From: Devosia naphthalenivorans
Lineage (GTDB): Bacteria; Pseudomonadota; Alphaproteobacteria; Rhizobiales; Devosiaceae
Direction: 5' to 3'
NCBI RefSeq assembly: GCF_003056355.1
Contig: NZ_PYVW01000007.1
Span: 62,001-126,000 of the forward strand
Length of the DNA stretch: 64,000 bases
The notes under the pieces were generated by a model. The model ran no database searches. It had not been told where the DNA came from and was given only the letters and a program-made list of their open reading frames with translations. This document shows, piece by piece, positions 7,702 through 21,291 of this stretch; the first letter of the stretch is position 1, and each line of letters starts with the position of its first letter. Made by a program: the position numbers and the translations under genes.

Positions 7702-7726
7702 GGAACCGAGGACCTACTCACACGTT
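7702..7726 (+). promoter_or_regulatory. Candidate EcfG (general stress sigma factor) promoter
   Basis: GGAAC at 7702-7706, 16 nt, then CGTT at 7723-7726 is an exact match to the EcfG consensus of alphaproteobacteria. It lies 26 nt before the start of the GlsB/YeaQ-like stress gene. Confidence 0.7.
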
Positions 7727-8028: not shown

Positions 8029-8520
8029 ATGGCCAGAGGAATGCCATCAATGGTCGCGCTGCTGGGTATGCTGGCAGTCGCGGGCTACCAGAACCGTGAC
8101 AAGCTCGGCTCGATGCTGGGTGGGCTTGGCAACAATGACCGCACCGGTGATCCCGGCGTAGCCGGACAGAACCAGGGTGGCCTGGGCGGCGTGCTTGGCG
8201 GCGCACTGGGCGGTGCAGGTGCCGGCGGTCTGGGTTCGATCCTGAGCGGCGGGCTGGGCGACCTCATGGAACAGTTCAACGGCTCGGGACAGGGCTCCAA
8301 GGCCCAAAGCTGGGTCGGCCCCGGGCAAAACGAGCCCATCGACCCCAATGATCTGGAACAGACCCTTGGCGCCGACACGATCGCCGAGCTGGAGCAAAAG
8401 ACCGGGCTCAGCCGGCAGGAGCTGCTTGAGCGCCTGAGCAAGACCTTGCCGGACGCGGTCAACCACTTTACCCCTGATGGCCACATACCGTCAGAAACCG
8501 AAGCCAGCCGCTTCGTCTGA
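8029..8520 (+). CDS. YidB-like (DUF937) protein
   Basis: A 163-residue protein of the YidB/DUF937 type. A short N-terminal hydrophobic stretch (MPSMVALLGMLAVAGYQ) leads into a long glycine-rich low-complexity part (GGLGGVLGGALGGAGAGGLG). The C-terminal helical domain has PNDLEQTLGADTIAELEQKTG and LSRQELLERLSKTLPDAVNH, then TPDGHIPSE. The last part is the conserved core of the family, whose function is unknown. The start has AAGGAGG seven bases upstream. It probably shares the stress promoter of the preceding GlsB-like gene. Confidence 0.85.
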   Translation: MARGMPSMVALLGMLAVAGYQNRDKLGSMLGGLGNNDRTGDPGVAGQNQGGLGGVLGGALGGAGAGGLGSILSGGLGDLMEQFNGSGQGSKAQSWVGPGQNEPIDPNDLEQTLGADTIAELEQKTGLSRQELLERLSKTLPDAVNHFTPDGHIPSETEASRFV

Positions 8521-8589: not shown

Positions 8590-10845
8590 TTGCCTGATCA
8601 ACAGTTCGGCGCACCACCCGTGCGGCCCATTTATGTCCGGCCCTCTGAGCGTGGCAATCCGCTGATTACAGCGGGTTTTTTGCTGATTGCCATTGTGGTG
8701 CTCTATCTGGGCTCAGGCATCCTCGTGCCGCTGGTGCTGGCCGTTCTGCTGGCCTTTGCCCTGGCCCCATTGATCCGGCGCCTGCGGCGGCTGCACGTTC
8801 CCCATATTCTCGCCATCCTGATCGCCGTTGGCCTGGCCGCGGCGCTGGTGGGTACCATTGGCTATCTGGTCGCAACGCAACTGGTCAAGCTCGCGTCCGA
8901 CCTGCCCGCCTATCAAAGCACTGTCGCCGCCAAGACCCAATCCCTGCAGGAAACCATGGGCGGTGGGCAGTTCCTCGACAGCCTCATGGGCGCAATCGAC
9001 CAGTTGACCGGTGACTTCCCCAATCCCGCGGAGGAAACCGTCGTTCCACCCACGCCCGTCACCATCACCAATGGCGGGGCCGGGCCGCTCGATCTGTTAC
9101 AGGGCGTGCTTGGCTCCGTGCTCGGGCCGCTGGCCACCGGCGCCATTGTCCTGGTCTTCCTGATCTTCCTGCTGCTCGAGCGCGAAGATCTGCGCGACCG
9201 CTTCCTTAAGCTCGTCAGCCGGGGCGATCTGCGCACCAGCACCAAGGTAATGAACGAAGCCGCGGCCCGCGTCGGGCGCTATCTGCTGGTGCAGTTCGGC
9301 GTCAATTTCAGCTATGGCATCGTCTTCGGCGCCGGCCTCTATCTCATCGGCGTGCCCAATGCGGTGCTTTGGGGTCTGCTGGCGGCCCTGTTCCGCTATA
9401 TCCCGTTCGTCGGAACGCTGATGGCCGCGAGCATCCCCTTCATGCTGGCCTTCGCGGTGGACCCGGGCTGGTTCATGCTGCTGGCTTCCATTGGGCTGTT
9501 CGTGACGCTGGAGATGACCATCACCAATGCCATCGAGCCCCGGCTCTATGGCTCCAGCACCGGCCTGTCACCGCTGGCGGTGCTGGTCGCCGCCATGTTC
9601 TGGGCAACGCTGTGGGGACCGATCGGGCTGATCCTCTCCACCCCGATTACCGTTTGTCTGGTGGTGCTTGGCCGCTACGTGCCGCAGCTGGCGTTCTTTG
9701 AAACCCTGTTGGGGAGCGAGCCGGTCCTGAGCCAGCCCGAACGGCTGTATCAGCGCCTGGTCTCGGGCAATGTCGAGGAAGCGGTGGAGCTGGCCGAGGA
9801 GCATATCGCCGACAACGACGTGTCCAAGTTCTATCTCGATGTGGCCGTCCCGGCGCTGCTGCTGGCCGAGATGGACCTATCCCTCGATGTTTCGGACCTC
9901 TCCCACCGCCGCAACGTGATGGACAGCATGCGCGCCGTCATCGACGACATCGATATTGAAATCGAGGCCGACCTTACGGCGAGCGAGAAGCCGCGCGTGC
10001 TGTGCATCGGGGGACGCACCGAACTGGATGACGCGGCGGCGCAGATCCTGATGCGCCTCATCAAGCCGGAAAATGGCCCGGTCAAGGCCCTCGCGCCGCT
10101 GGCGATCCGGCAGGAAAGCATCGGTCAATTGGCGCTTGAAGGGGTCGAGGTCATCTGCCTCTGCTATCTCGACAAAAGCCCGCGCAGCCATGCGCGCCTG
10201 GTTGCCCGCCGCTTGTCGCGCCGCCATTCGGGCATAAAGATCATAGCGGTAGCTCTTGGCGTGCCTCCCGTGAGCGGTGATCGCAAGCAGGATTGGGGCG
10301 TGGCTCGGATCGTGCCCGGATTGTCGGAAGCCGTCTTGGCGGTGGACGAATTGGTCCATGCCGATACCCCACAGAAGCCCACTGCCGTTCCCGCCATCGA
10401 TGATGCGGCACTCGACCGCTTGCGGCAGCTCGCTCATTCGGACGGTCCTCTCGCCAAGGCTCTTGGCGATATCGCCAGCGCCAGCAATGCCCCCACGGCC
10501 ATCATGGACATTGTGGATAGCAAATTCCGCGCGCTCACCGTGGTCGAAGAACACGACGAGATCAACGGCGCCAGCCAGAGCGTCGTGGCCAGCGAAGCGA
10601 CCCTCATCCTGCCGGATGTGGTCGAAAGCGAGGAATTCGCCAATGACCGGTTCTTCCTTGAGAACGGCGTACGCTTTTACGCCGGTGTGCCGCTCAAGGG
10701 GCCAGACGGCACCGTGATCGGCGTCCTCGCCCTGTTGGACGACAAGCCGCGCGACTTCACCGAAGTGGATCGGGAAAAGCTCGAACTGGAAGCGCTTAAG
10801 TTGATGACGCGGTTGAACCAGTTGACCCGGGCCGAGATCGCCTGA
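8590..10845 (+). CDS. AI-2E family permease with a C-terminal extension and GAF-like domain
   Basis: A 751-residue protein. Residues about 20-355 form an AI-2E/UPF0118-type membrane domain (paired helices near 25-75, a loop region, then GVPNAVLWGLLAALFRYIPF and TGLSPLAVLVAAMFWATLWG). Then comes a cytoplasmic extension unusual for the family. Residues about 360-590 include RVLCIGGRTELDDAAAQIL and VEVICLCYLDKSPRSHARLV, a Rossmann-like pattern. The last 130 residues look like a GAF domain (SEEFANDRFFLENGVRFYAG, VIGVLALLDDKPRDF). I chose the TTG at 8590 because GAGGAG lies seven bases before it; another TTG is at 8575. The extension suggests ligand or redox control of the permease. Confidence 0.8.
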   Translation: MPDQQFGAPPVRPIYVRPSERGNPLITAGFLLIAIVVLYLGSGILVPLVLAVLLAFALAPLIRRLRRLHVPHILAILIAVGLAAALVGTIGYLVATQLVKLASDLPAYQSTVAAKTQSLQETMGGGQFLDSLMGAIDQLTGDFPNPAEETVVPPTPVTITNGGAGPLDLLQGVLGSVLGPLATGAIVLVFLIFLLLEREDLRDRFLKLVSRGDLRTSTKVMNEAAARVGRYLLVQFGVNFSYGIVFGAGLYLIGVPNAVLWGLLAALFRYIPFVGTLMAASIPFMLAFAVDPGWFMLLASIGLFVTLEMTITNAIEPRLYGSSTGLSPLAVLVAAMFWATLWGPIGLILSTPITVCLVVLGRYVPQLAFFETLLGSEPVLSQPERLYQRLVSGNVEEAVELAEEHIADNDVSKFYLDVAVPALLLAEMDLSLDVSDLSHRRNVMDSMRAVIDDIDIEIEADLTASEKPRVLCIGGRTELDDAAAQILMRLIKPENGPVKALAPLAIRQESIGQLALEGVEVICLCYLDKSPRSHARLVARRLSRRHSGIKIIAVALGVPPVSGDRKQDWGVARIVPGLSEAVLAVDELVHADTPQKPTAVPAIDDAALDRLRQLAHSDGPLAKALGDIASASNAPTAIMDIVDSKFRALTVVEEHDEINGASQSVVASEATLILPDVVESEEFANDRFFLENGVRFYAGVPLKGPDGTVIGVLALLDDKPRDFTEVDREKLELEALKLMTRLNQLTRAEIA

Positions 10846-11305: not shown

Positions 11306-11330
11306 GGAACAATGGCTCTCCGACGCTGTT
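11306..11330 (+). promoter_or_regulatory. Weak EcfG-like promoter before the HAD-UbiA operon
   Basis: GGAAC at 11306-11310, 16 nt, then TGTT at 11327-11330. It differs from CGTT by one base and lies 62 nt before the first gene of the operon. Chance matches of this quality are possible. Confidence 0.35.
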
Positions 11331-11392: not shown

Positions 11393-12943
11393 TTGAGCAG
11401 GTCAGAGCAATACGCCATTCACCCACTACCAGCCCACCGGCAACCCGAAACAAGCCTTGAGGGACGTTTCTCCTTCCCCGAGGTAGCGCGTCCCGACAAT
11501 GACAGCGACACCATCCGGCCTGAACTGGGCGCATTGCGCCCGCTGGTCGTCGATCTCGATGGCACGTTGCTCCGCTCGGATTTGCTGATCGAAGCGGCTT
11601 TTTCCGAGCTGGGCCAGCGCCCCCACGCCATATTAGGCATTCTCAAGGCCCTGCGCGAGGGCAAGTCCGCGCTCAAGGACCATCTGTCCCTGCCCGATGA
11701 TTTCGACCCTTCCGTCCTGCCCTATGACGAGGTGGTGCTCCAATATATCAGCGAAGCCCGCGACGCCGGCCGGCCGGTCTACCTGGCCTCGGCCAGCCAC
11801 GAGCGGCTGGTGAGTGCGGTTGCCGAGCATCTGGGCCTGTTCGACGGCTGGTTCGCCACCACCAGGAGTTCCAACTGCTCGGGCCACGTCAAGGCACAGA
11901 TCCTCGTCGATGCCTTCGGCGACCGGCAGTTCGACTATATCGGCAATGACAAGGCGGACCTTGAAGTGTGGCCCCATGCCGCCAAGTGTCTCGCCATCCG
12001 CGCCAATGGCCGGGTGGGCCGAACCTTGGCCCGGCGCTTCGATGACGTGGAACATTTGCACCACGACCAGACGAGCTGGAAGGATTGGGCGCGTCTCATG
12101 CGCGTGCACCAATATGCCAAGAACGCCCTGGTTTTCGTACCGCTGATCACCAGCCAGATCTTCGAGCTTGAGGCCTTGCTGACCGTTTTCGTCGCGGCCA
12201 TTGCCTTTTCGCTCTGCGCCTCGAGCGTCTACATTCTCAACGACCTCGTCGACATCAGGGATGACCGCGGCCACCCCAGCAAGCGCCTGCGTCCGCTGGC
12301 GAGCGGCACCATTCCACTGGCCGATGCAGTGATGGCCGTGCCGATCCTGTTCGGCATTTCAATCGCCATCGCCTCGGCCATTTCCCTGCCGTTCCTCGGG
12401 GTGCTGCTGGGCTATTATGCCCTGACCACCGCCTATTCCTTCGTGCTCAAGCGCATGCTGCTGGCTGACGTGATGGCGCTGGCCGGGCTCTATACGGTGC
12501 GCGTCGTCGGCGGGGCGGTCGCAATCGGCGTTTCCACCTCGTTCTACCTGCTTGCCTTCCTGGTGGCCTGGTTCCTGTCGCTGGCCTTGATCAAGCGCTT
12601 CGTGGAATTGGGCGCGCGCAAAAAGGCGCATCTGGGCGACAGCTCCAGCCGCGACTATCGAAACGACGACATCTTCATGGTGGGCGCACTTGCCGCCGCT
12701 GCGGGGCTGCAGTCGATCACCCTGTTCATCCTCTACGCCACCAACGAGGCTTCGGAGGCTCTTTATAGCCGCCCCGAAATTCTCTGGCTGGTCGCACCCG
12801 TCCTAACGTTTTGGCTGGGCCGTGCCCTGGTGCTGGCGCAGCGTGGTGAAATGCACGACGATCCGATGGTGTTTGCCCTCAAGGACCGCGTCAGCATCGT
12901 GACTCTGGCGCTTGCCGGCGCCATGGTCGTCGGCGCAATGTAG
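11393..12943 (+). CDS. HAD hydrolase-UbiA prenyltransferase fusion (DPPR synthase-like)
   Basis: A 516-residue two-domain protein. Residues about 50-220 are a HAD hydrolase with motif I VVDLDGTLL (nucleophile Asp54, general acid Asp56) and a late acidic motif IGNDKADLEVW. The rest is a UbiA-type membrane prenyltransferase with the metal-binding NDLVDIRDD near residue 283 and a second conserved stretch LADVMALAGLYTVRVVGGA. In mycobacteria a UbiA enzyme (Rv3806c) joins decaprenyl phosphate to phosphoribose and a separate phosphatase removes the 5-phosphate. Neighbouring DprE1/DprE2-like genes suggest the same pathway here, with the HAD part as a possible phosphatase. The TTG start has GAGGTGG upstream. 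Confidence 0.82.
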   Translation: MSRSEQYAIHPLPAHRQPETSLEGRFSFPEVARPDNDSDTIRPELGALRPLVVDLDGTLLRSDLLIEAAFSELGQRPHAILGILKALREGKSALKDHLSLPDDFDPSVLPYDEVVLQYISEARDAGRPVYLASASHERLVSAVAEHLGLFDGWFATTRSSNCSGHVKAQILVDAFGDRQFDYIGNDKADLEVWPHAAKCLAIRANGRVGRTLARRFDDVEHLHHDQTSWKDWARLMRVHQYAKNALVFVPLITSQIFELEALLTVFVAAIAFSLCASSVYILNDLVDIRDDRGHPSKRLRPLASGTIPLADAVMAVPILFGISIAIASAISLPFLGVLLGYYALTTAYSFVLKRMLLADVMALAGLYTVRVVGGAVAIGVSTSFYLLAFLVAWFLSLALIKRFVELGARKKAHLGDSSSRDYRNDDIFMVGALAAAAGLQSITLFILYATNEASEALYSRPEILWLVAPVLTFWLGRALVLAQRGEMHDDPMVFALKDRVSIVTLALAGAMVVGAM

Positions 12944-12966
12944 CTGGCAAGCGGAGGCATCAGAAC

Positions 12967-13410
12967 TTGTTCCAGCTCACCCCTGCGCGCGACACCGGCG
13001 CGGCCAGCGTCAGCATGACCGCTTTTCGCTATGTGCTGTTCGCCGTGATCTCGACCATCGTCAATTTCATGGCCCAGCACATGGTTATCGTGGCGCTGCC
13101 GATGGCGCCCCTCGTGCTCTCGATCCTGTTCGGCACGGCCGCCGGTTTTGCCGTCAAATATGTTCTCGACAAGAAATGGGTGTTCGAAGACGACTACACC
13201 ACGGGCCGGAGCGAGATGCGCAAGGTGAGCCTCTATGCCCTTTTCAGCGTTGGCACGACGGTGATCTTCTGGGCCTTCGAGATCACCGCCTGGGTGATCT
13301 GGCAGACCGATTTCGCCAAATACACCGGCGGCGCGCTGGGTCTGGCCATCGGCTATTGCGCCAAATATGCTCTGGACAAACGCTATACGTTCCGGACGGA
13401 GAGCGCCTGA
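12967..13410 (+). CDS. GtrA family membrane protein
   Basis: A 147-residue inner-membrane protein with four predicted helices and the GtrA-type pattern (FRYVLFAVISTIVNFMAQH, then GFAVKYVLDKKWVFEDD, and the repeated KYALDKRYTFR at the end). GtrA proteins are implicated in moving polyprenyl-phosphate sugars across the membrane. In mycobacteria a GtrA-like gene (Rv3789) lies beside dprE1 and dprE2, as here. TTG at 12967 is supported by GGAGG nine bases upstream; ATG at 13015 is the alternative. It is 23 bp after the UbiA gene, and the next gene starts directly after its stop. Confidence 0.85.
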   Translation: MFQLTPARDTGAASVSMTAFRYVLFAVISTIVNFMAQHMVIVALPMAPLVLSILFGTAAGFAVKYVLDKKWVFEDDYTTGRSEMRKVSLYALFSVGTTVIFWAFEITAWVIWQTDFAKYTGGALGLAIGYCAKYALDKRYTFRTESA

Positions 13411-14739
13411 ATGCTGCTGGAGGGATGGGGTCGCTTCCCGCGGCACGAGAGTGAAATGCTCGTGGCCTCCGCACCGGGCGAGCTGGCCGCCTTGCTGCAT
13501 GACCGCCATGGCATGATCGCCCGCGGCAATGGGCGCGCCTATGGCGATGCCGCCATCGGCAGCCGGATCAGCGTTTCCGCCAAGCGGCTCAACCGCATGA
13601 AGGCCTTCGATCCCGCAACGGGCGTGCTCACCGCCGAGGCCGGCCTGCTGCTGTCGGAAATCCTCGACGCCTTCGTGCCACGCGGCTTTTTCCCGCCCGT
13701 GGTGCCCGGCACCAAGCATGTGACCCTTGGCGGCATGATCGCCTCGGACGTTCACGGCAAGAACCATCACCGCGATGGCGGCTTCGGGGCGCTCCTACAA
13801 AGCCTCAAGCTAGTGCTGCCGAGCGGAGAAACCCACCATTGCTCGCCCGATGAGAACACCGAACTGTTCCACGCCACCATTGGCGGCATGGGGCTCACCG
13901 GCATCATCACCGAGGCGAGTATAAAGCTACGCCCCATAGAAACCGCCTTCATCACCCAGAAAACCACAGTCGCCCCCGACCTTGCCGCCGCGCTGGCGGC
14001 GCTCGATGCAGCCGATAACGTCACCTACTCCGTCGCGTGGATCGATTGCCTGGCCGGTGGCGGCTCGCTTGGGCGCTCGTTGGTTTATGCAGGCGAACAT
14101 GCCAGCCGCAGCGAGATGGAAGCCGCGCGCCACGGCGACATGCTGGCCGTTTCGAGGCCCGCCAGGCTCAGCGTGCCGCTCGACCTGCCCGGCTGGACAT
14201 TGAACCGTGCCTCGGTACTGGCGTTCAACGAGCTTTATTTCCGCAAGGGCGCGCGAAATGGGGATGCCGCCGCGCTGGTGCACTACAATCCTTATTTCTT
14301 CCCGCTCGATGGCGTGGATCGCTGGAACCGCATCTATGGCCGCCGGGGGTTCCTGCAGCATCAATGCGTCGTGCCGCCCGACAATGCCCATGCGGTCTTG
14401 AGCGAAATCCTCGAACGCTTCGCCCGCTCCGGCCGCGCCTCGTTCCTTGCCGTGCTCAAGAAGCTGGGCCAGGGCCAGGGCATGATGTCTTTTCCCATGC
14501 CCGGCTATACGCTGGCGCTGGACGTCCATGTGCGCGATGATATCTTCACCCTGCTCAATGAGATTGACGAAGTGGTTACGCGGGCCGGTGGACGGCTTTA
14601 CCTTGCCAAGGACGCGCGCCAGTCCCGCGCGACGTTCCGGGCCGGCTATCCCGCCCTTGCGCAATTTCAGGATCTGCGGCGTCACATCGGCGTTGAAGGT
14701 CAGATCGCATCCAAACTCTCCGAGAGGCTTGCCATATGA
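13411..14739 (+). CDS. dprE1: DprE1-like FAD-dependent decaprenylphosphoryl-ribose oxidase
   Basis: A 442-residue flavoprotein of the vanillyl-alcohol-oxidase/GlcD fold. In mycobacteria DprE1 oxidises C2 of decaprenylphosphoryl ribose, the first half of the epimerisation to arabinose. FAD-domain features are ARGNGRAYGDAAI (about 37-49) and LPGT-like VVPGTKHVTLGGMIASDVHGKNHH, with HGKNHH at 115-120. The C-terminal stretch FPMPGYTLALDV then RLYLAKDARQSRATF aligns with the mycobacterial active site. Lys400 corresponds to the catalytic Lys418, and Ala369 stands where mycobacterial DprE1 has Cys387, the benzothiazinone target. It is in an operon with a DprE2-like reductase (ATGA overlap). Confidence 0.87.
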   Translation: MLLEGWGRFPRHESEMLVASAPGELAALLHDRHGMIARGNGRAYGDAAIGSRISVSAKRLNRMKAFDPATGVLTAEAGLLLSEILDAFVPRGFFPPVVPGTKHVTLGGMIASDVHGKNHHRDGGFGALLQSLKLVLPSGETHHCSPDENTELFHATIGGMGLTGIITEASIKLRPIETAFITQKTTVAPDLAAALAALDAADNVTYSVAWIDCLAGGGSLGRSLVYAGEHASRSEMEAARHGDMLAVSRPARLSVPLDLPGWTLNRASVLAFNELYFRKGARNGDAAALVHYNPYFFPLDGVDRWNRIYGRRGFLQHQCVVPPDNAHAVLSEILERFARSGRASFLAVLKKLGQGQGMMSFPMPGYTLALDVHVRDDIFTLLNEIDEVVTRAGGRLYLAKDARQSRATFRAGYPALAQFQDLRRHIGVEGQIASKLSERLAI

Positions 14740-15482
14740 GCACTGCGCAACAAACCCTGCTGCTGATCGGAGCCACGTCCGACATCGGGCATGCGACGGC
14801 ACAGGCCTTTGCCGGTGCCGGATGGAACGTGCTCCTCACCGCGCGCAACACCGAAACAGCGCAGCGCAACCGCGACGACATCGCAGCCCGCAGCGGCAGC
14901 GAAGTGAGCCTCCTTCACCTCGACATCCTTGATACCTCTGGCTTTGCAACCTTCCTCGACGGGCTTCCGGTCCTGCCCGATGCCGTGGTCTGCGTCGTTG
15001 GGGAACTGGGCGACCAGCAGCAGGCGCAGGGTGATATCGACCACGCCTCCAAGGTCATCCGCACCAATTTCGAAGGTCCGGCGCTGCTTCTTGGCATGAT
15101 CGCCGAGCGTTTTGCACAGCGCGGCAGTGGCACCATTGTCGGCGTCAGCTCCGTCGCCGGCGATCGTGGCCGTGGCTCCAACTATGTCTATGGCGCCGCC
15201 AAGGCCGGCTTTTCCGCCTTCCTCTCCGGCCTGCGCAACCGGCTCAGTCCCGGCGGCATCAATGTCATCACGGTCAAACCCGGCTTCGTGCGCACCCGCA
15301 TGACCGAGGGCATGAAATTGCCGCCCCTGCTCACGGCCGAACCCGGCGAGGTGGGCGCCGCCATCCTCGGCGCGGTGCAAGGCAGGAAGCGCGACGTGCT
15401 CTACGTACGCAAGCTGTGGCGGCCCGTGATGATGGCCGTGCGCGCCATTCCCGAACCCATCTTCAAGAAGATGCGGCTCTAG
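14736..15482 (+). CDS. dprE2: DprE2-like short-chain reductase
   Basis: A 248-residue short-chain dehydrogenase. In the mycobacterial pathway DprE2 reduces the 2-keto intermediate made by DprE1 to decaprenylphosphoryl arabinose. Cofactor motif LLIGATSDIGHATAQAFA (Gly-rich, residues about 9-26), catalytic Ser in GVSSVAGDRG and YVYGAAKAGF with Tyr and Lys. The C-terminal helix (PEPIFKKMRL) is basic and may touch the membrane. The start overlaps the DprE1-like stop by four bases, so translation is probably coupled. Assignment as DprE2 rests on both the sequence type and the partner gene. Confidence 0.87.
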   Translation: MSTAQQTLLLIGATSDIGHATAQAFAGAGWNVLLTARNTETAQRNRDDIAARSGSEVSLLHLDILDTSGFATFLDGLPVLPDAVVCVVGELGDQQQAQGDIDHASKVIRTNFEGPALLLGMIAERFAQRGSGTIVGVSSVAGDRGRGSNYVYGAAKAGFSAFLSGLRNRLSPGGINVITVKPGFVRTRMTEGMKLPPLLTAEPGEVGAAILGAVQGRKRDVLYVRKLWRPVMMAVRAIPEPIFKKMRL

Positions 15483-15483
15483 C

Positions 15484-17082
15484 ATGGAGCGCGTGCTGGC
15501 GCCCCCCGCCTCATCCGGTGTCCTTGCAACCGGCTGGCACACACTGCAGCGCCATCCCGCCCGCGCCCTGCTGATCGCCTGCGCCGTGCTGGCCTTGTTG
15601 CTGGCGGTTCCCGGCGAGACCGTCACCACGCGGACACTGGAGGAACTGTTCGCCATCCTCGATGGCGTGCACCGCCTTGCCTGGGGCAAGGTGCCCAACC
15701 GCGATTTCCACTCCGCCATCGGCCCGCTGGCCTATTATATTCCGGGGCTGGGCTATTGGCTCACCGGCAGCTTCGGCGCCGCCTTGCCGGTCGGCATGGC
15801 CCTGCTGCTGCTGCCGTTCGGCGCCATCGCGGCCCATATCCTGCCCTCGCGCCTGTCGCCGGCGCTTGCCCTGCCCTTCGGCTGTTTCCTGCTGCTGATC
15901 CTGGCCGTCCCGATGAATCTGGGCGACGCGGTCAACGCCTTGTCCTTTGGCCAGTTTTACAATCGCATCGGTTGGGTTGGCCTGGCCCTGCTCCTCGTGA
16001 TGTTCCTGCCGCCGGAAACCGGGCGGCCCACCCTGCTGCTCGATATTCTCTGCGCGGCCGTCCTCACCCTCCTGCTGATCTATTGCCGCGCGACCTATGG
16101 CATTGTGGCAGTCGGCTTTCTCCTGTTCATGCTGACCGGCCGGCGCCAGTGGCTCTGGGCGGGCACAGCGCTCATCCTCGCTGCCGCCGTAGCGGGATTG
16201 ATCGAGTTGTTCTGGCGTGGCTCGCTCGCCTATTGGCAGGATTCCCTCCTCGCCTTTTCCGCGGGCGGCTGGCTGCGCTTCACGCCACGGCAATGGCTTG
16301 ATCTGTTCCTCGGCAACACGGCCGATTACCTGCTGCTCGGCTTCCTGGTCGGCATCGCGACATGGCGGCGTTTCAGCCTACGCCTGGTGCTGTTTGCCGT
16401 CCTGTGCGGGCTTGCCGGCTTCTGGCTCCTCAATCAGAACGATCAGCGCTGGGGCATGATCGTCATTCACGCCGCCGCCGCGGCCGTGGCCGAAACCATC
16501 CTGCGCGACATGCGCCGCGCCGACGCACGCCCGGTTGGCGCGCTGGTCAATCCCGCCGGCGTCAAGCTCTACCTCTTCGGCTTTCTCTTCCCCACCATCG
16601 TGCACTGCGCCATCGCCCTCTCGCTCCACGCTGGCACGGCCCTGGTCAATGGCGGGCAGGCGCTCACCCTGCCTCGCCTCGAGGCCGTGCGCCTTGCCGA
16701 TCTCTGGACTCCGGGCGATTTCGGCGGCAGCCGGTGGTACACCGATCTGGTTGCCGATGGCCTCGGCGCCATCGAAGGGCTCGATCAACCAGCCGCGCCG
16801 CTTGTGGTTCTCGGCGGGCCCAACCCCTTCTCCCTGATCCTCGATCTCCAGCCAGCCCGCGGCGATACCGCGCATCTGCGGTGGGGGCATCACCAGAACG
16901 AAATCCACCAGATCCCCGCCGCCGAGATGCTGGGCAACACCTCCACCGTGCTGGAGCGCCTCGCCGCCGGTGGTATCGGCACCATGGGCGCGGCCTACCT
17001 GCCCTTTGTTTCCGAGAATTTCGAGCCCGCTGCACAGACCCCGAACTGGCGCATCTTCCAGCGCCCCGACGACCTGCAGTGA
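15484..17082 (+). CDS. GT-C-like polytopic membrane protein, paralogue 1 of 3
   Basis: A 532-residue membrane protein with about ten hydrophobic segments and a soluble C-terminal tail. After the first helix comes a loop with TVTTRTLEELFAILDG (Glu53, Glu54, Asp60) and GKVPNRDFHSAIGPLAYY (71-84). Acidic residues and an RDF-GPL motif in the first outer loop resemble GT-C glycosyltransferases that use polyprenyl-phosphate sugars. The tail carries NPFSLILDLQPARGD and RWG, shared with the next two genes. It begins two bases after the DprE2-like stop. I infer a lipid-linked-pentose transferase; the acceptor is unknown and no named family is recognised. Confidence 0.7.
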   Translation: MERVLAPPASSGVLATGWHTLQRHPARALLIACAVLALLLAVPGETVTTRTLEELFAILDGVHRLAWGKVPNRDFHSAIGPLAYYIPGLGYWLTGSFGAALPVGMALLLLPFGAIAAHILPSRLSPALALPFGCFLLLILAVPMNLGDAVNALSFGQFYNRIGWVGLALLLVMFLPPETGRPTLLLDILCAAVLTLLLIYCRATYGIVAVGFLLFMLTGRRQWLWAGTALILAAAVAGLIELFWRGSLAYWQDSLLAFSAGGWLRFTPRQWLDLFLGNTADYLLLGFLVGIATWRRFSLRLVLFAVLCGLAGFWLLNQNDQRWGMIVIHAAAAAVAETILRDMRRADARPVGALVNPAGVKLYLFGFLFPTIVHCAIALSLHAGTALVNGGQALTLPRLEAVRLADLWTPGDFGGSRWYTDLVADGLGAIEGLDQPAAPLVVLGGPNPFSLILDLQPARGDTAHLRWGHHQNEIHQIPAAEMLGNTSTVLERLAAGGIGTMGAAYLPFVSENFEPAAQTPNWRIFQRPDDLQ

Positions 17083-18599
17083 CACGGCAGATCACCCCGT
17101 CGCGGTCCAACACCGCCATTTGGGCCCTTGCGTTCATTGCCGCATTATTGCTGGCCGTACCCGGTCGCACCATCACCACGGCCTATGTCAACGACGTGTT
17201 GATCTTTCTCGATGGCGCCAACCGCATCGCCTTCGGCCAGGTTCCCAACCGTGATTTCCACACAGCCCTTGGCCCACTGGTGTATTACCTGCCCGCGCTC
17301 GGCCTCTGGCTGACCGGCCGCATGGGTGGTGCCCTGCCCGTCGGCATGGCCGTGCTGATCCTGGTTCTGGCGTCGGTGTTCGTCCACGTCCTGGGCTCGC
17401 GCCTTCGGCCCATGCTGGCCCTGCCCTTCGGTGCCTTTCTCCTGCTGATCCTGGCGCTTCCGGCCAATCTGGGCGATCCGCTCTCCTCGGTCTCCTTTGC
17501 GATGTACTACAACCGCATCGGCTGGGCTGCGCTGGCGCTCCTCGCGGTGCTTTACCTGCGCCCACAGGCGCCCGACGCACCCCATTGGTGGCAGGATGCG
17601 AGCTGCGCCGCCGCTCTGGTGCTGGTGGCGCTTTATACCAAGATAACCTATGCCCCGACCGCCTTTGCGCTGCTGCTATTGTTTGCGCTCGACCCAAGGC
17701 AGCGGCGCTGGGCCGGCGCTGCGCTTGGCCTTGTCGGCTGCGGCATGCTGCTGGTCGAACTCGTCTGGCGCGGCTCATTCGCCCATGTGCAGGATCTGAT
17801 CGACACCGCCAAGGTCAGCGGCCAGCGCGACGTGCAATTGCTGGTCCGGGCCGTGCTCAACAATTTCACCGATCTGATACTCACCCTGGTGCTTGCCGCA
17901 CTCGCGCTTTATCGCAGCCGCAGCCTGCTCGATCTGTGCTTTTACGGGCTCTGCATCGCCTCGGGCATCCTGATCATTTCCCAGAACGCCCATGGCTGGG
18001 GCATTATCACGCTGTTTGCGGCTGGGGTCGTCGCCGCCGAAACGCATCTGCGCTATGCGCCAGCCGCCCGGTCTTGGTCCGGGGCGCCACTGCTGTTCTG
18101 GCTCATGGTCCTGCCCCCGATGGTCAAGCATGCCATTGGGCTCGTGCTTTATGCTTGCATGGCGCTATCGAATTTCGGAACGCCCCTGAACCTGCCCAAC
18201 TTCACCGATGTGCGGTTTGGCCGCCTGTGGTCGCCGGGCGATAATGGCTTCACCGAAAAATACATCGGCACCTTCCCCAAGGGCGCTTCCCTGCTTGCCA
18301 AATTCGACAATCCCGCCCGGGTTCTGGTGCTCGACTTCTCCAACCCGTTCTCCGCCGGCATGGGGCTGCAGCCACCGCGCGGCGATATTTCATGGATGCA
18401 TTGGGGCCGCAATGTCAGCGCCGCCCATCACCCGGCACCTTCGGAGCTTTTCGAGGACGTGGCCATTGTGATGATACCGGAAATCGGCATTAACAGCCGG
18501 CAATTGGAGGAGCTTTACGGGCCCTTCGTTGCCGGGAATTACCAACTCATCAGCGCCACGGAAGGGTGGAAAGTCTACGTTTCGAGGAACGGGCAATGA
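17079..18599 (+). CDS. GT-C-like polytopic membrane protein, paralogue 2 of 3
   Basis: A 506-residue protein with the same plan as its neighbours: one N-terminal helix, a loop with TITTAYVNDVLIFLDG (Asn38, Asp39, Asp45) and GQVPNRDFHTALGPLVYYLP (54-73), a series of helices, then a soluble tail with SNPFSAGMGLQPPRGD and HWGRN. The GTG start at 17079 overlaps the previous stop as GTGA; the reading frame is open far upstream, but only this start gives the shared N-terminus. In paralogues 2 and 3 the acidic pair is Asn-Asp rather than Glu-Glu, which may mean different donors or acceptors. Function inferred as for paralogue 1. Confidence 0.7.
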   Translation: MTRQITPSRSNTAIWALAFIAALLLAVPGRTITTAYVNDVLIFLDGANRIAFGQVPNRDFHTALGPLVYYLPALGLWLTGRMGGALPVGMAVLILVLASVFVHVLGSRLRPMLALPFGAFLLLILALPANLGDPLSSVSFAMYYNRIGWAALALLAVLYLRPQAPDAPHWWQDASCAAALVLVALYTKITYAPTAFALLLLFALDPRQRRWAGAALGLVGCGMLLVELVWRGSFAHVQDLIDTAKVSGQRDVQLLVRAVLNNFTDLILTLVLAALALYRSRSLLDLCFYGLCIASGILIISQNAHGWGIITLFAAGVVAAETHLRYAPAARSWSGAPLLFWLMVLPPMVKHAIGLVLYACMALSNFGTPLNLPNFTDVRFGRLWSPGDNGFTEKYIGTFPKGASLLAKFDNPARVLVLDFSNPFSAGMGLQPPRGDISWMHWGRNVSAAHHPAPSELFEDVAIVMIPEIGINSRQLEELYGPFVAGNYQLISATEGWKVYVSRNGQ

Positions 18600-20206
18600 C
18601 GACACCTCCCATTGCCAAGGACCAGCAAAGAGCCCGGGAGACTGTGCGCGTTCCCGCGCTGTCGCTGGGCTGGATCGTCCTCCTGATCGGGCTCGTCCTC
18701 GCGCTGGTTCTCGCCCTGCCGGGGCAGACTGTGACGACCAAATACGTCAATGACCTCTTCATCTTCCTCGATGGCGCCTATCGCATTGTGCAGGGTCAGG
18801 TGCCCAATCGGGATTTCCATTCCTCGCTTGGTCCGCTCGCATTTTACCTGCCCGCCTTTGGCTATGCGCTGATGGGGAGTCTCGGCGCCGCCATGCCGCT
18901 GGGAATGGCGCTGGCAACCGTGTTCCTCGCCCTGATCGCCGCCCAGGTGATCGGCAGCCGCATGCGCCCGATCACCGGCATTCCGCTGGCGGTGTTCCTG
19001 CTGCTGATTGCCGCCGTGCCGCTCAACCCCGGCGAGGGAATTGGCGATCTGTCCTTCGCCATGTTCTACAATCGCCTGGGCTGGACGGCCCTCGGCCTGC
19101 TCCTGGTCATGTATCTGCCGCCAAGGGATGGTTCCCGCCAGCCGGTGCTGGATGCCGGCTGTGCTGCGGCGCTCACGCTGTTCTTGGTCTATCTCAAGAT
19201 CAGCTATGGCGTCGTCGCCATTGCCTTTATCCTTTTCATGCTGATCGACTGGACTGCCCGTCGCTGGGCGGCGATGGCCCTGCTCGGCAGCGTCGTCGCA
19301 ATGCTCCTGATCGAGGCGATCTGGGGAGGAACAGCGACCTACCTTGCCGATGTGAAGCTGGCGAGCAATGTCAGCGGTGACCTGCCGGATCTCCAGCGCC
19401 TCACCACCATCGTGCTGCAGAACCTGGCCGATATCGCCGTGGCCCTGGTGTTTGCCGCCATCCTGCTGCTTGTGCGCCGCAGCTGGCGCGATCTGCTGTT
19501 CCTGGGCTTCTGCGGCGCCACGGGCATACTCATCATCGAACAGAACTTCCAGATCGTCGGCATCCTCAGCCTTGCCGCCGGCGCCGCCGTTGCCGCCGAG
19601 CTTCTGGCCGCTCACTGGCCCCGCAAAGGATTGCATCTAGGCCTGCCCCTGTTGCTGGCCATCCTCATGTTGCCCGTCACCGCCCAGAACGGGCTTGGAC
19701 TTATCCTCCACACCGGCCTCGCGCTGAGCCAGCAGGGCGACGACTTCACGCTTCCGGGCTTGGCTGGCGTCCGGCTGGTGCAGGTCACCAATGAGGGACT
19801 TTACCGCAATTTCTCCCGCTACAACCGCTCGCTGGCCGATGGCGCCGTAGCCTTGTCAACCCTCGATACCGAAATCGAACGGGTCGTGGTGTTTGATTTC
19901 GTCAGCCCTTTCACCGCGGGCCTGGGCCTTGCTCCCCCCAGCGGCGACAGCCCCTGGTACCATTGGGGCCGCACGCTGGACGACGACATGTATCCTCCCG
20001 CCGAGGGCATATTGGCTGATGCCAAGATCATCATGGAGCCCAAATGGCCGGTTGAAGTGTGGACCGCGCGCGGCATGAGCCGGGTCTATGCCGGTTATTT
20101 GGCTGCCCACTTTACACTAGCCAATGAAATCGCTGACTGGCGCGTCTATGTCCGGCGCGCCGAGACCACCAACGTCACTAGGCAAAGCACCAGCGCCCAG
20201 CCATAG
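18596..20206 (+). CDS. GT-C-like polytopic membrane protein, paralogue 3 of 3
   Basis: A 536-residue protein, third of the tandem family. The first outer loop has TVTTKYVNDLFIFLDG (Asn52, Asp53, Asp59) and GQVPNRDFHSSLGPLAFYLP (68-87). The C-terminal tail has SPFTAGLGLAPPSGD and HWGRT. The ATG at 18596 overlaps the previous stop (ATGA), so all three are translationally coupled to the DprE genes. Its last 61 bp overlap the end of the convergent GT87-like gene. The tandem series suggests successive transfers building a short oligosaccharide or arms of a polysaccharide. Confidence 0.7.
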   Translation: MTTPPIAKDQQRARETVRVPALSLGWIVLLIGLVLALVLALPGQTVTTKYVNDLFIFLDGAYRIVQGQVPNRDFHSSLGPLAFYLPAFGYALMGSLGAAMPLGMALATVFLALIAAQVIGSRMRPITGIPLAVFLLLIAAVPLNPGEGIGDLSFAMFYNRLGWTALGLLLVMYLPPRDGSRQPVLDAGCAAALTLFLVYLKISYGVVAIAFILFMLIDWTARRWAAMALLGSVVAMLLIEAIWGGTATYLADVKLASNVSGDLPDLQRLTTIVLQNLADIAVALVFAAILLLVRRSWRDLLFLGFCGATGILIIEQNFQIVGILSLAAGAAVAAELLAAHWPRKGLHLGLPLLLAILMLPVTAQNGLGLILHTGLALSQQGDDFTLPGLAGVRLVQVTNEGLYRNFSRYNRSLADGAVALSTLDTEIERVVVFDFVSPFTAGLGLAPPSGDSPWYHWGRTLDDDMYPPAEGILADAKIIMEPKWPVEVWTARGMSRVYAGYLAAHFTLANEIADWRVYVRRAETTNVTRQSTSAQP

Positions 20207-21291
20207 GCCGATCCGGTGGTCAGTTGCACGCTCGTCGGTGCCCCAAACTGGTTGATGATCATCGGCACGGGAATGCACAGCATTGCCGCCACCAGCCACA
20301 TCGGCCAGAACCGCCAATGCGACACGATCACCGGCAACAGGAACAGCGTATAGTGGATCCACCCCAGCGGGGACGCAAGCACTGCGGCCACCAAAGCGAA
20401 GCTGCTCGCCTGCACAACCGGAGGCTGCTTCCACAGTGCCCACCCCGCCAGCGCCAGCAGCATGGTGCCGCTCAGCACCAGCCCCAGATAGGGAATGCCC
20501 GCCCGCGCAGTGAAGCCCGACAGCGACGCATTGGTCAAAAACATCGCCCGCTCGCCATCCGACACCACGAGTTCCGCCCATTGCCGGTAGATTTCCACCC
20601 CGAAGAACAACACCGGAATGATGCTGATTACCGCAGCCGTTCCCACCGAAACCAGGCTCGATTTGCGATGCCCGGCGAGAAACAACAGCACCGGCCACAC
20701 CAGGAAATTGGGCTTGATCGCAATCACGAGCCCGATCAGCACACCGGCCCAGACATGCTCGCCGCGCTCCAGCAGCAGCCAGGCCCCCACCGCCGCCAGC
20801 ACCAGCGGAATATAGATCTGTCCCAGATAAAGCGTGTCCCAGAACCCCGCCAGCGCCCCGGCCCAGGCGATCAGCACCACCGCCTCCGGTCCCCGCGCAT
20901 AACGATGCAGAAGGAGCGCTATGGTCGCCGCATAAAGCCCGATGGAAATCCAAGACCAGGCGCGAAAACTCACCTCCGGCGGCGCCAGGTCGAACAGCTG
21001 AAACAGCAGCGCAGAGACCGGTGGATTGAGATTGGGGTTCCACGCCTCGAAGCCTGGAAAAACCACATGCGGCGTCAGGGGCGGATAGATGCCATAGGGG
21101 TTTAGCCCTTCCGCGGCCGCGCGCCCCGACGCCAGAAAGGCTCCGAAATCCCACAGCCCGTGGGGAGGGGCGATACGGGGCCATTCGACCCAGATCACCC
21201 ATAGCGAGAACAGCGTCAGCAACGCCGCGGCTATCCAGAACAAGATCCGGTCAAGCTTGCCGGCGGCATAGCTCGCATCGAGCTGGCTCAT
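20146..21291 (-). CDS. GT87/DUF2029-type membrane glycosyltransferase
   Basis: A 381-residue membrane protein with about nine helices. The first outer loop has LWDFGAFLASGRAAAEGLNPYG and then NLNPPVSALLFQLF (split into shorter matches WDFGAF, GLNPYGIYPP and NLNPP), the layout of GT87 enzymes such as mycobacterial polyprenol-phosphate-mannose transferases. Further IKPNFLVWP and SPLGWIHYTLFLLP agree. It would act at the periplasmic face with a polyprenyl-phosphate sugar. It is convergent with paralogue 3 and overlaps it by 61 bp at the 3' ends. Likely a partner of the arabinose-lipid operon, though on the other strand. Confidence 0.78.
   Translation of the reverse strand: MSQLDASYAAGKLDRILFWIAAALLTLFSLWVIWVEWPRIAPPHGLWDFGAFLASGRAAAEGLNPYGIYPPLTPHVVFPGFEAWNPNLNPPVSALLFQLFDLAPPEVSFRAWSWISIGLYAATIALLLHRYARGPEAVVLIAWAGALAGFWDTLYLGQIYIPLVLAAVGAWLLLERGEHVWAGVLIGLVIAIKPNFLVWPVLLFLAGHRKSSLVSVGTAAVISIIPVLFFGVEIYRQWAELVVSDGERAMFLTNASLSGFTARAGIPYLGLVLSGTMLLALAGWALWKQPPVVQASSFALVAAVLASPLGWIHYTLFLLPVIVSHWRFWPMWLVAAMLCIPVPMIINQFGAPTSVQLTTGSAYGWALVLCLVTLVVSARRT

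Follow-up and report, generated by a model that had tools for sequence, protein, structure and literature searches.

In this study, we report the analysis of a 64,000-nucleotide stretch of the 4.49 Mb genome of Devosia naphthalenivorans (contig NZ_PYVW01000007.1, positions 62,001 to 126,000; hereafter the window, to which coordinates refer unless another locus is named). The window carries, at 11393-20206, a tight operon of seven genes on one strand, encoding a HAD-UbiA fusion, a GtrA protein, DprE1-like and DprE2-like enzymes and three paralogous membrane proteins termed here P1, P2 and P3. We consider it probable that this operon makes polyprenyl-phosphate-beta-D-arabinofuranose (polyprenyl-P-D-Araf) for use outside the inner membrane, where an oligo- or poly-D-arabinofuranoside would be built, probably under the control of EcfG. 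The donor logic has already been published for mycobacteria, Nod factors and pentofuranose systems; the present operon is a variant of these, with an unnamed transferase family, that of P1-P3.

Operon organisation and predicted donor pathway

The operon and its flanking elements were assigned as follows.

11306-11330, plus strand: promoter-like box GGAAC-N17-GTT of the EcfG type, 62 bases 5' of the first start codon; a sequence match only
11393-12943, plus strand: HAD phosphatase-UbiA fusion (UbiA 3.8e-18, HAD 1e-7), with a TTG start behind GAGGTGG
12967-13410, plus strand: GtrA family membrane protein (PF04138 7.2e-10; NF037976 157.7 bits)
13411-14739, plus strand: DprE1-like FAD oxidase (DprE1 4aut 2.5e-84; NF053785 406.8 bits)
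14736-15482, plus strand: DprE2-like short-chain dehydrogenase/reductase (DprE2 21gq_C 3.9e-30; NF053786 184.5 bits, NF005489 351.3 bits)
15484-17082, plus strand: P1, GT-C-like membrane protein, clade 1 (no family match; paralogue identity, tree)
17079-18599, plus strand: P2, GT-C-like membrane protein, clade 2, with a GTG start (no family match; paralogue identity, tree)
18596-20206, plus strand: P3, predicted GT-C membrane protein, clade 3 (structure model, pLDDT 94.0, pTM 0.92)
20146-21291, minus strand: GT87 family glycosyltransferase, convergent with P3 (PF09594 6.8e-30)

A sequence-only reading of the window had placed these seven genes in this order and described tight packing from dprE1 to the third paralogue, and both points were confirmed: the GtrA stop directly abuts the DprE1 ATG, the pairs DprE1/DprE2, P1/P2 and P2/P3 overlap by 4 bases, and a single 1-base gap separates DprE2 from P1. 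The end that it gave, 21291, belongs to the convergent GT87 gene, which its text did not mention and which shares 61 bases with the 3' end of P3.

A lipid-linked D-arabinose donor, as that reading proposed, is well supported, DPPRS, DprE1 and DprE2 being the closest solved structures to the three enzymes; the solved proteins are mycobacterial. The HAD-UbiA protein matched NF006088 (606 bits) and DPPRS 8j8j (5.1e-21), and its asparagine-aspartate motif ILNDLVDIRDD aligned with LVNDVRDVEAD of DPPRS, placing it with the DPPRS-type proteins; it is predicted to be a polyprenyl-phosphate phosphoribosyltransferase combined with a 5'-phosphatase. The GtrA protein, in an Rv3789-like position, is a candidate flippase for the lipid-linked sugar. 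The alignment of the DprE1-like protein with 4aut spans residues 3-441 and keeps the GKNHH and AKD motifs, which carry the FAD-site histidine and the catalytic lysine of DprE1. This enzyme would perform the 2'-oxidation of polyprenyl-P-ribose, and the DprE2-like enzyme is predicted to finish the 2'-epimerisation to D-Araf. As a side observation, the DprE1-like protein (13411-14739) reads LALDV where 4aut reads VCVDF; the cysteine of the latter is the residue of mycobacterial DprE1 hit by benzothiazinones, which suggests that the window enzyme is probably insensitive to these drugs.

A family of predicted GT-C proteins in three old clades

P1, P2 and P3 share 37-41% mutual identity, and none of them matched a family in Pfam or NCBIfam (one DUF2631 row, E 0.66, was noise). 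Relatives from across the family, ten searched against Pfam and eight against NCBIfam, likewise gave no family match except two sub-threshold rows, and the PDB yielded no chain with an E-value of 10 or better to a 112-row profile of the family. The AlphaFold2 model of P3, a protein of 536 residues with a small non-membrane C-terminal part, reached a pLDDT of 94.0 and a pTM of 0.92. Foldseek placed AftB first (1.6e-4, 3.5e-4), followed by oligosaccharyltransferases and ArnT, and the VIA comparison of the model gave Z-scores of 11.1 for ArnT, 10.8 for AftA, 9.9 for Pmt4, 8.3 each for AftD and AftB, and 7.3 for EmbB. The P3 model has a GT-C fold, with many transmembrane helices and an acidic residue in the loop after transmembrane helix 1; P1 and P2 are termed GT-C-like by extension from P3 through their identity to it. 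The earlier description of three GT-C-like transferases of a family not yet named agrees with the P3 model and with these Pfam and NCBIfam searches. Membership of the mycobacterial Aft/Emb enzymes (CAZy GT85, GT89 and GT53) was rejected, there being no Pfam match for the three window proteins and ten relatives and no sequence match to a solved chain.

The phylogeny was derived from 134 sequences, cut to 109 at 88% identity and joined by the three window proteins to give 112 rows, using quick maximum likelihood; the main splits had support of 87-99, while some inner branches were weak. Three clades were obtained, holding window P1, P2 and P3 respectively, and each contains Devosia, Paracoccus, Pseudorhizobium, Microvirga and a metagenome-assembled genome (MAG) of Beijerinckiaceae, so that P1, P2 and P3 represent old orthologous clades. 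MAGs of Hyphomicrobiales belong to clades P1 and P2, and the third copies in these MAGs (L049, L076) branch just outside all three. Most Rhizobium loci retain P2 and P3, one MAG (L065) has P3 alone, and some Microvirga carry only P2 (L042, L043, L047) or only P3 (L039, L040). Roseobacters have a single copy that branches before the duplications. In the loop after transmembrane helix 1, D59, R63 and D73 are conserved at 97-100% in each of the three clades and in roseobacters, as are R122, R160 and D186; none of P1-P3 therefore looks dead. Their long retention in a fixed order argues for different jobs.

Distribution and association with donor genes

Peptide patterns from five members were used to scan 84,980 species, giving 70 loci (L016-L085), almost all titled as Alphaproteobacteria. 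With the GT-C gene as query, DprE1 was present in 58 of the 70 and all four donor genes in 56, and the pairing is therefore not due to chance. Among the 12 loci lacking DprE1, four (L033, L045, L065, L081) are short contigs and five (L057, L067, L074, L075, L080) belong to genomes encoding a DprE1 elsewhere (42-49% identity); the remaining three (L083, L084, L085) are distant, and their two genomes, L083 and L084 lying on one contig, show weak FAD-oxidase matches only. With 58 loci and five more carriers genome-wide, the expectation that the homologues occur together with dprE1/dprE2 was borne out.

The family is rare and the cassette patchily spread. A sample of 385 genomes from the class gave two matches besides the window's own, at about 1e-30, and close copies were found in two of 24 relatives from the genus, with a distant copy in a third. 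In many Rhizobium the cassette is plasmid-borne: 32 plasmid records match P3 (30 Rhizobium, one Paracoccus, one Tateyamaria), the annotated matches among the best 30 of these 32 are labelled hypothetical, and 28 of the best 30 also stand among the best 60 of 65 DprE1 records. A phage origin was considered and rejected, as a search of 50,697 phage records gave no match to P3 at E 0.01.

Some downstream neighbours are common to the window and D. submarina, and no shared upstream one was found within the 6 kb examined. Two open reading frames (ORFs) upstream in the latter (L013, 4288-5853) resemble, from their first residues, a type 2 isopentenyl-diphosphate isomerase and a DUF4142 protein; the former might be linked to polyprenol supply. 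Leaving aside the roseobacters and the distant L083-L085, 32 of the remaining 49 loci, some of them short contigs, have a GT87 gene, which is a likely partner of the operon; no solved chain was found for its protein by sequence.

Neighbouring genes, product and acceptor

The evidence for a polymer comes from roseobacters, in which DUF4185, TMEM260-like GT-C and AsmA-like genes lie beside the GT-C gene in 17 of 18 loci, as against none of the 52 others. For the DUF4185 protein of L050 the closest solved structure is the endo-alpha-D-arabinanase 8hhv (2.7e-60), and the TDLG and FGD aspartates, which from their spacing would be the catalytic pair, are kept. DUF4185 founded the family GH183 of endo-D-arabinanases, and the members tested cleave D-Araf chains (PMC10115798, PMC10509167). 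Across 198 genomes of the roseobacter family, a sample centred on a carrier chosen as such (G435) and thus not wholly blind, DUF4185 occurs in three, two of which are the only strong GT-C carriers, the third being a weak partial match. The presence of DUF4185 in 17 of 18 loci suggests that the product of the roseobacter operon is probably a D-arabinan. The TMEM260-like GT-C (PF11028, protein O-mannosyltransferase-like) and the AsmA-like protein, seen at 1937-5394 of L050 and constant partners in the same 17 loci, are possibly a priming transferase and an envelope exporter. In L073 (1685-5600), the one exception, the operon is accompanied by MdoG, and the DUF4185/TMEM260/AsmA block was not seen within the DNA examined.

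P1-P3 might instead each add one D-Araf to separate positions of an O-antigen, capsule or exopolysaccharide synthesised elsewhere, a possibility to be taken seriously, although we doubt it. Side-chain transfer would share the HAD-UbiA donor enzyme and GT-C logic with the three-component systems of Kelly et al. 2024 (PMC11127046), and the cassette does not itself carry polymer export genes. At 5320-17975 of L014 (genome G014, same genus), what appears from protein starts to be an exopolysaccharide cluster includes a distant GT-C relative (8760-10532) and, 3-4 kb away, HAD-UbiA and DprE1 genes of another kind (37-40% identity). Twelve Microvirga loci have sugar-nucleotide epimerase/dehydratase-like and glycosyltransferase genes a few kb downstream (e.g. 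17577-19832 of L018), a pair that would fit the decoration of another glycan. Against side chains, no O-antigen or capsule locus was found within about 9-15 kb in four annotated plasmid carriers, GtrA stands in place of a MATE flippase, and the endo-D-arabinanase homologues of the roseobacter loci belong to a family whose tested members cut chains of D-Araf.

The acceptor, at least in roseobacters, could be an osmoregulated periplasmic beta-glucan, but this is unlikely. Of the 18 roseobacter loci, 13 have an MdoG/OpgG-family gene adjoining the GT-C gene, in two arrangements: convergent in ten and as a same-strand copy (33-36% identical) in L059, L064 and L067, followed by MdoH in L059, the one locus checked. 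It is absent, however, from the other five and from all 52 remaining loci, and the adjacency may be mere synteny; we treat it as an acceptor lead, no more.

That the acceptor is a pilin-like protein, as with TfpW of Pseudomonas, or a lipo-chitooligosaccharide, as with noeCNHOP, seems quite improbable. Both systems are considered to draw on a donor of this type in Gram-negative hosts (PMC11127046, PMC5080398), and the TMEM260-like protein in 17 of 18 roseobacter loci resembles protein O-mannosyltransferases; on the other side, the annotation of the four plasmid carriers includes neither nod nor pilin genes, and the last gene of the nod operon of IRBG74 has no profile similarity to P1-P3. Nod-factor arabinosylation was rejected, hhalign giving a probability of 0.4 (per cent) between P1-P3 and this gene, which occupies the place of NoeP.

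It is very unlikely that DprE1/E2 are non-functional as epimerases here and the sugar therefore D-ribofuranose or some other pentose, a reading to which the missed NCBIfam cut-offs given below and the five long-locus carriers without DprE1 in the locus (four of which keep UbiA, L057 not) would lend themselves, but against which stand the retained GKNHH and AKD motifs, the DprE1 encoded elsewhere in those five genomes and the endo-D-arabinanase homologues beside the roseobacter operons.

An EcfG-type box upstream of the operon

The box GGAAC-N17/18-GTT precedes the operon in 26 of the 54 loci counted, compared with 229 of 10,134 random segments (2%) drawn from these loci and 24 of 392 regions upstream of other conserved ORFs; four variants of the pattern were tried before the one counted, and the loci are related and do not constitute 54 independent trials. 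The 54 are UbiA genes, counted after leaving out the duplicate L013, the minus-strand L014 and L066, the split L043, genes near contig ends, and, because no HAD motif was detected in them, L080, L076 and L074. A box of the form GGAAC-N16..20-GTT is present in the window and 25 further loci, and spacers differ between genera while the distance of the box stays similar within each group. For R. etli the published EcfG consensus reads GGAAC-N16-CGTT (PMC3892343), for Sphingomonas GGAAC-N17-20-GTT (PMC6599016), and NepR is encoded in the window's genome. The enrichment points to a promoter-like match through which the operon is probably under EcfG general stress control. Neighbours encoding DUF4142, CsbD, Hsp20 and manganese catalase fit such control, anecdotally. 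At 7702-7726 of the window, another GGAAC-N16-CGTT box lies about 300 bases 5' of a small ORF at 8029, which precedes the AI-2E transporter-plus-GAF gene upstream of the operon.

Assessment of the arabinofuranoside reading

In the reading that we prefer, HAD-UbiA and the DprE1-like and DprE2-like enzymes would yield polyprenyl-phosphate-beta-D-arabinofuranose, which P1-P3 would spend beyond the inner membrane. The product would most likely be an oligo- or poly-D-arabinofuranoside assembled stepwise, possibly with a division of labour among the paralogues (e.g. priming, extension, branching or capping), and its synthesis would probably belong to the general stress response governed by EcfG. The gene identities and their order, the predicted fold of P3, the orthology of the paralogues, the association with DprE1/E2 and, among roseobacters, with an endo-D-arabinanase homologue, and the enrichment of the box are results of this analysis; the chemical steps, the division of labour, the polymeric nature of the product and its regulation are inferred.

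A number of points weigh against this. The NCBIfam equivalog cut-offs were missed by both epimerase components (NF053785, 406.8 of 500 bits; NF053786, 184.5 of 250), and the names DprE1-like and DprE2-like are used for this reason. The Foldseek TM-scores of P3 were low (0.27-0.46 among GT-C rows) and helical bundles alone yield middling Z-scores in structure comparison; the claim is therefore limited to the GT-C fold, with no particular family. DUF4185 was detected in all nine roseobacter carrier genomes and in none of the 14 others (n=23). A search of the window's genome yielded no DUF4185; the control of that search also gave nothing, but the same kind of search does work, as the nine of nine roseobacter carriers indicate. 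The polymer inference is thus strongest for roseobacters and is carried over elsewhere by homology. None of the counted Microvirga operons has the box, and no published D-Araf glycan structure was found for a carrier. Lastly, the 18-kb surroundings of 15 relatives (E 2e-24 to 4e-85; one intermediate and 14 distant, one family, drawn from 55 genomes whose relatives are all intermediate or distant) contained no UbiA or DprE match. The wider GT-C superfamily therefore need not use a D-Araf donor, and was dropped as a D-Araf marker at large; from L014, parts of it may also use pentofuranose donors.

Comparison with known systems

Compared with the mycobacterial decaprenyl-phosphoryl-arabinose pathway (Rv3806c, Rv3789, DprE1, DprE2, AftA, EmbCAB), the same donor chemistry is predicted and GT-C folds are involved in both; the order GtrA-DprE1-DprE2-GT-C and the tandem paralogues, as in embCAB, are shared as well. 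Endo-D-arabinanases of DUF4185 are known there, and their homologues lie beside the roseobacter operons. The operon differs in that HAD is fused to UbiA, where mycobacteria have a separate Rv3807c, in its Gram-negative hosts and EcfG-type box, and in the lack of a Pfam family or solved-structure sequence match for P1-P3; nor is it known to be essential. The mycobacterial likeness drawn in the sequence-only reading was thus apt for gene order and did not extend to a Pfam family for the three transferases.

Pentofuranose transfer by HAD-UbiA and GT-C proteins was established by Kelly et al. 2024, who founded GT136, describe homologues of DprE1/E2 for the addition of D-Araf and mention several candidate GT-Cs in some systems (PMC11127046); neither the donor pathway nor the presence of several GT-Cs outside actinobacteria is therefore new as such, and the locus of this operon may already be drawn in the supplement of that paper. 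The three-component GT136 systems have the HAD(PRP)-UbiA fusion, a flippase and a GT-C in common with the operon, which in contrast has GtrA and no MATE-family flippase, three orthologous GT-C clades and, in the four annotated plasmid carriers, no O-antigen locus; P3 also lacks a C-terminal domain like residues 503-652 of ORF12, a carbohydrate-binding module.

A Nod-factor precedent had been cited for the donor: for noeCNHOP (Azorhizobium, IRBG74; PMC5080398), the plasmid of IRBG74 carries genes for UbiA, GtrA, an FAD oxidoreductase and a short-chain dehydrogenase/reductase in an order identical to that of the operon. The last gene there (401 aa) is unrelated to P1-P3, the genes lie beside nod genes, and the acceptor differs. 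Pilin arabinosylation by TfpW of Pseudomonas is likewise proposed to use polyprenyl-P-D-Araf and a membrane transferase (PMC11127046). Unlike P1-P3, the TfpW transferase is tied to a pilin gene. No paper on D-arabinan or on the P1-P3 family in alphaproteobacteria was found in a search largely of open literature.

Conclusions

The earlier wording of an unknown envelope glycan as acceptor stands. To that first description, this study adds the arabinanase neighbour in roseobacters, the stress-type promoter box, the old triplication, the patchy and partly plasmid-borne spread and the glucan-gene neighbours. Taken as a whole, an alphaproteobacterial D-arabinan, made by a new GT-C family working as a non-redundant assembly line of three paralogues, remodelled by GH183 in roseobacters and switched by EcfG, is a tentative proposal, on which we stand a little to the side of doubt.

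D-arabinan is considered characteristic of mycobacterial cell walls, and the present findings point to D-arabinan-like material in Gram-negative soil, plant-associated and marine bacteria. They provide an unnamed GT-C family with a putative donor and identified model organisms, GH183 as an enzyme probe of the product, and hosts outside the pathogens in which lipid-linked-arabinose transferases can be studied. If the reading is true, the D-arabinan-degrading enzymes of gut and soil microbes would find natural targets beyond mycobacteria, and arabinosylation of the envelope could be counted among the candidate outputs of the stress response in alphaproteobacteria.

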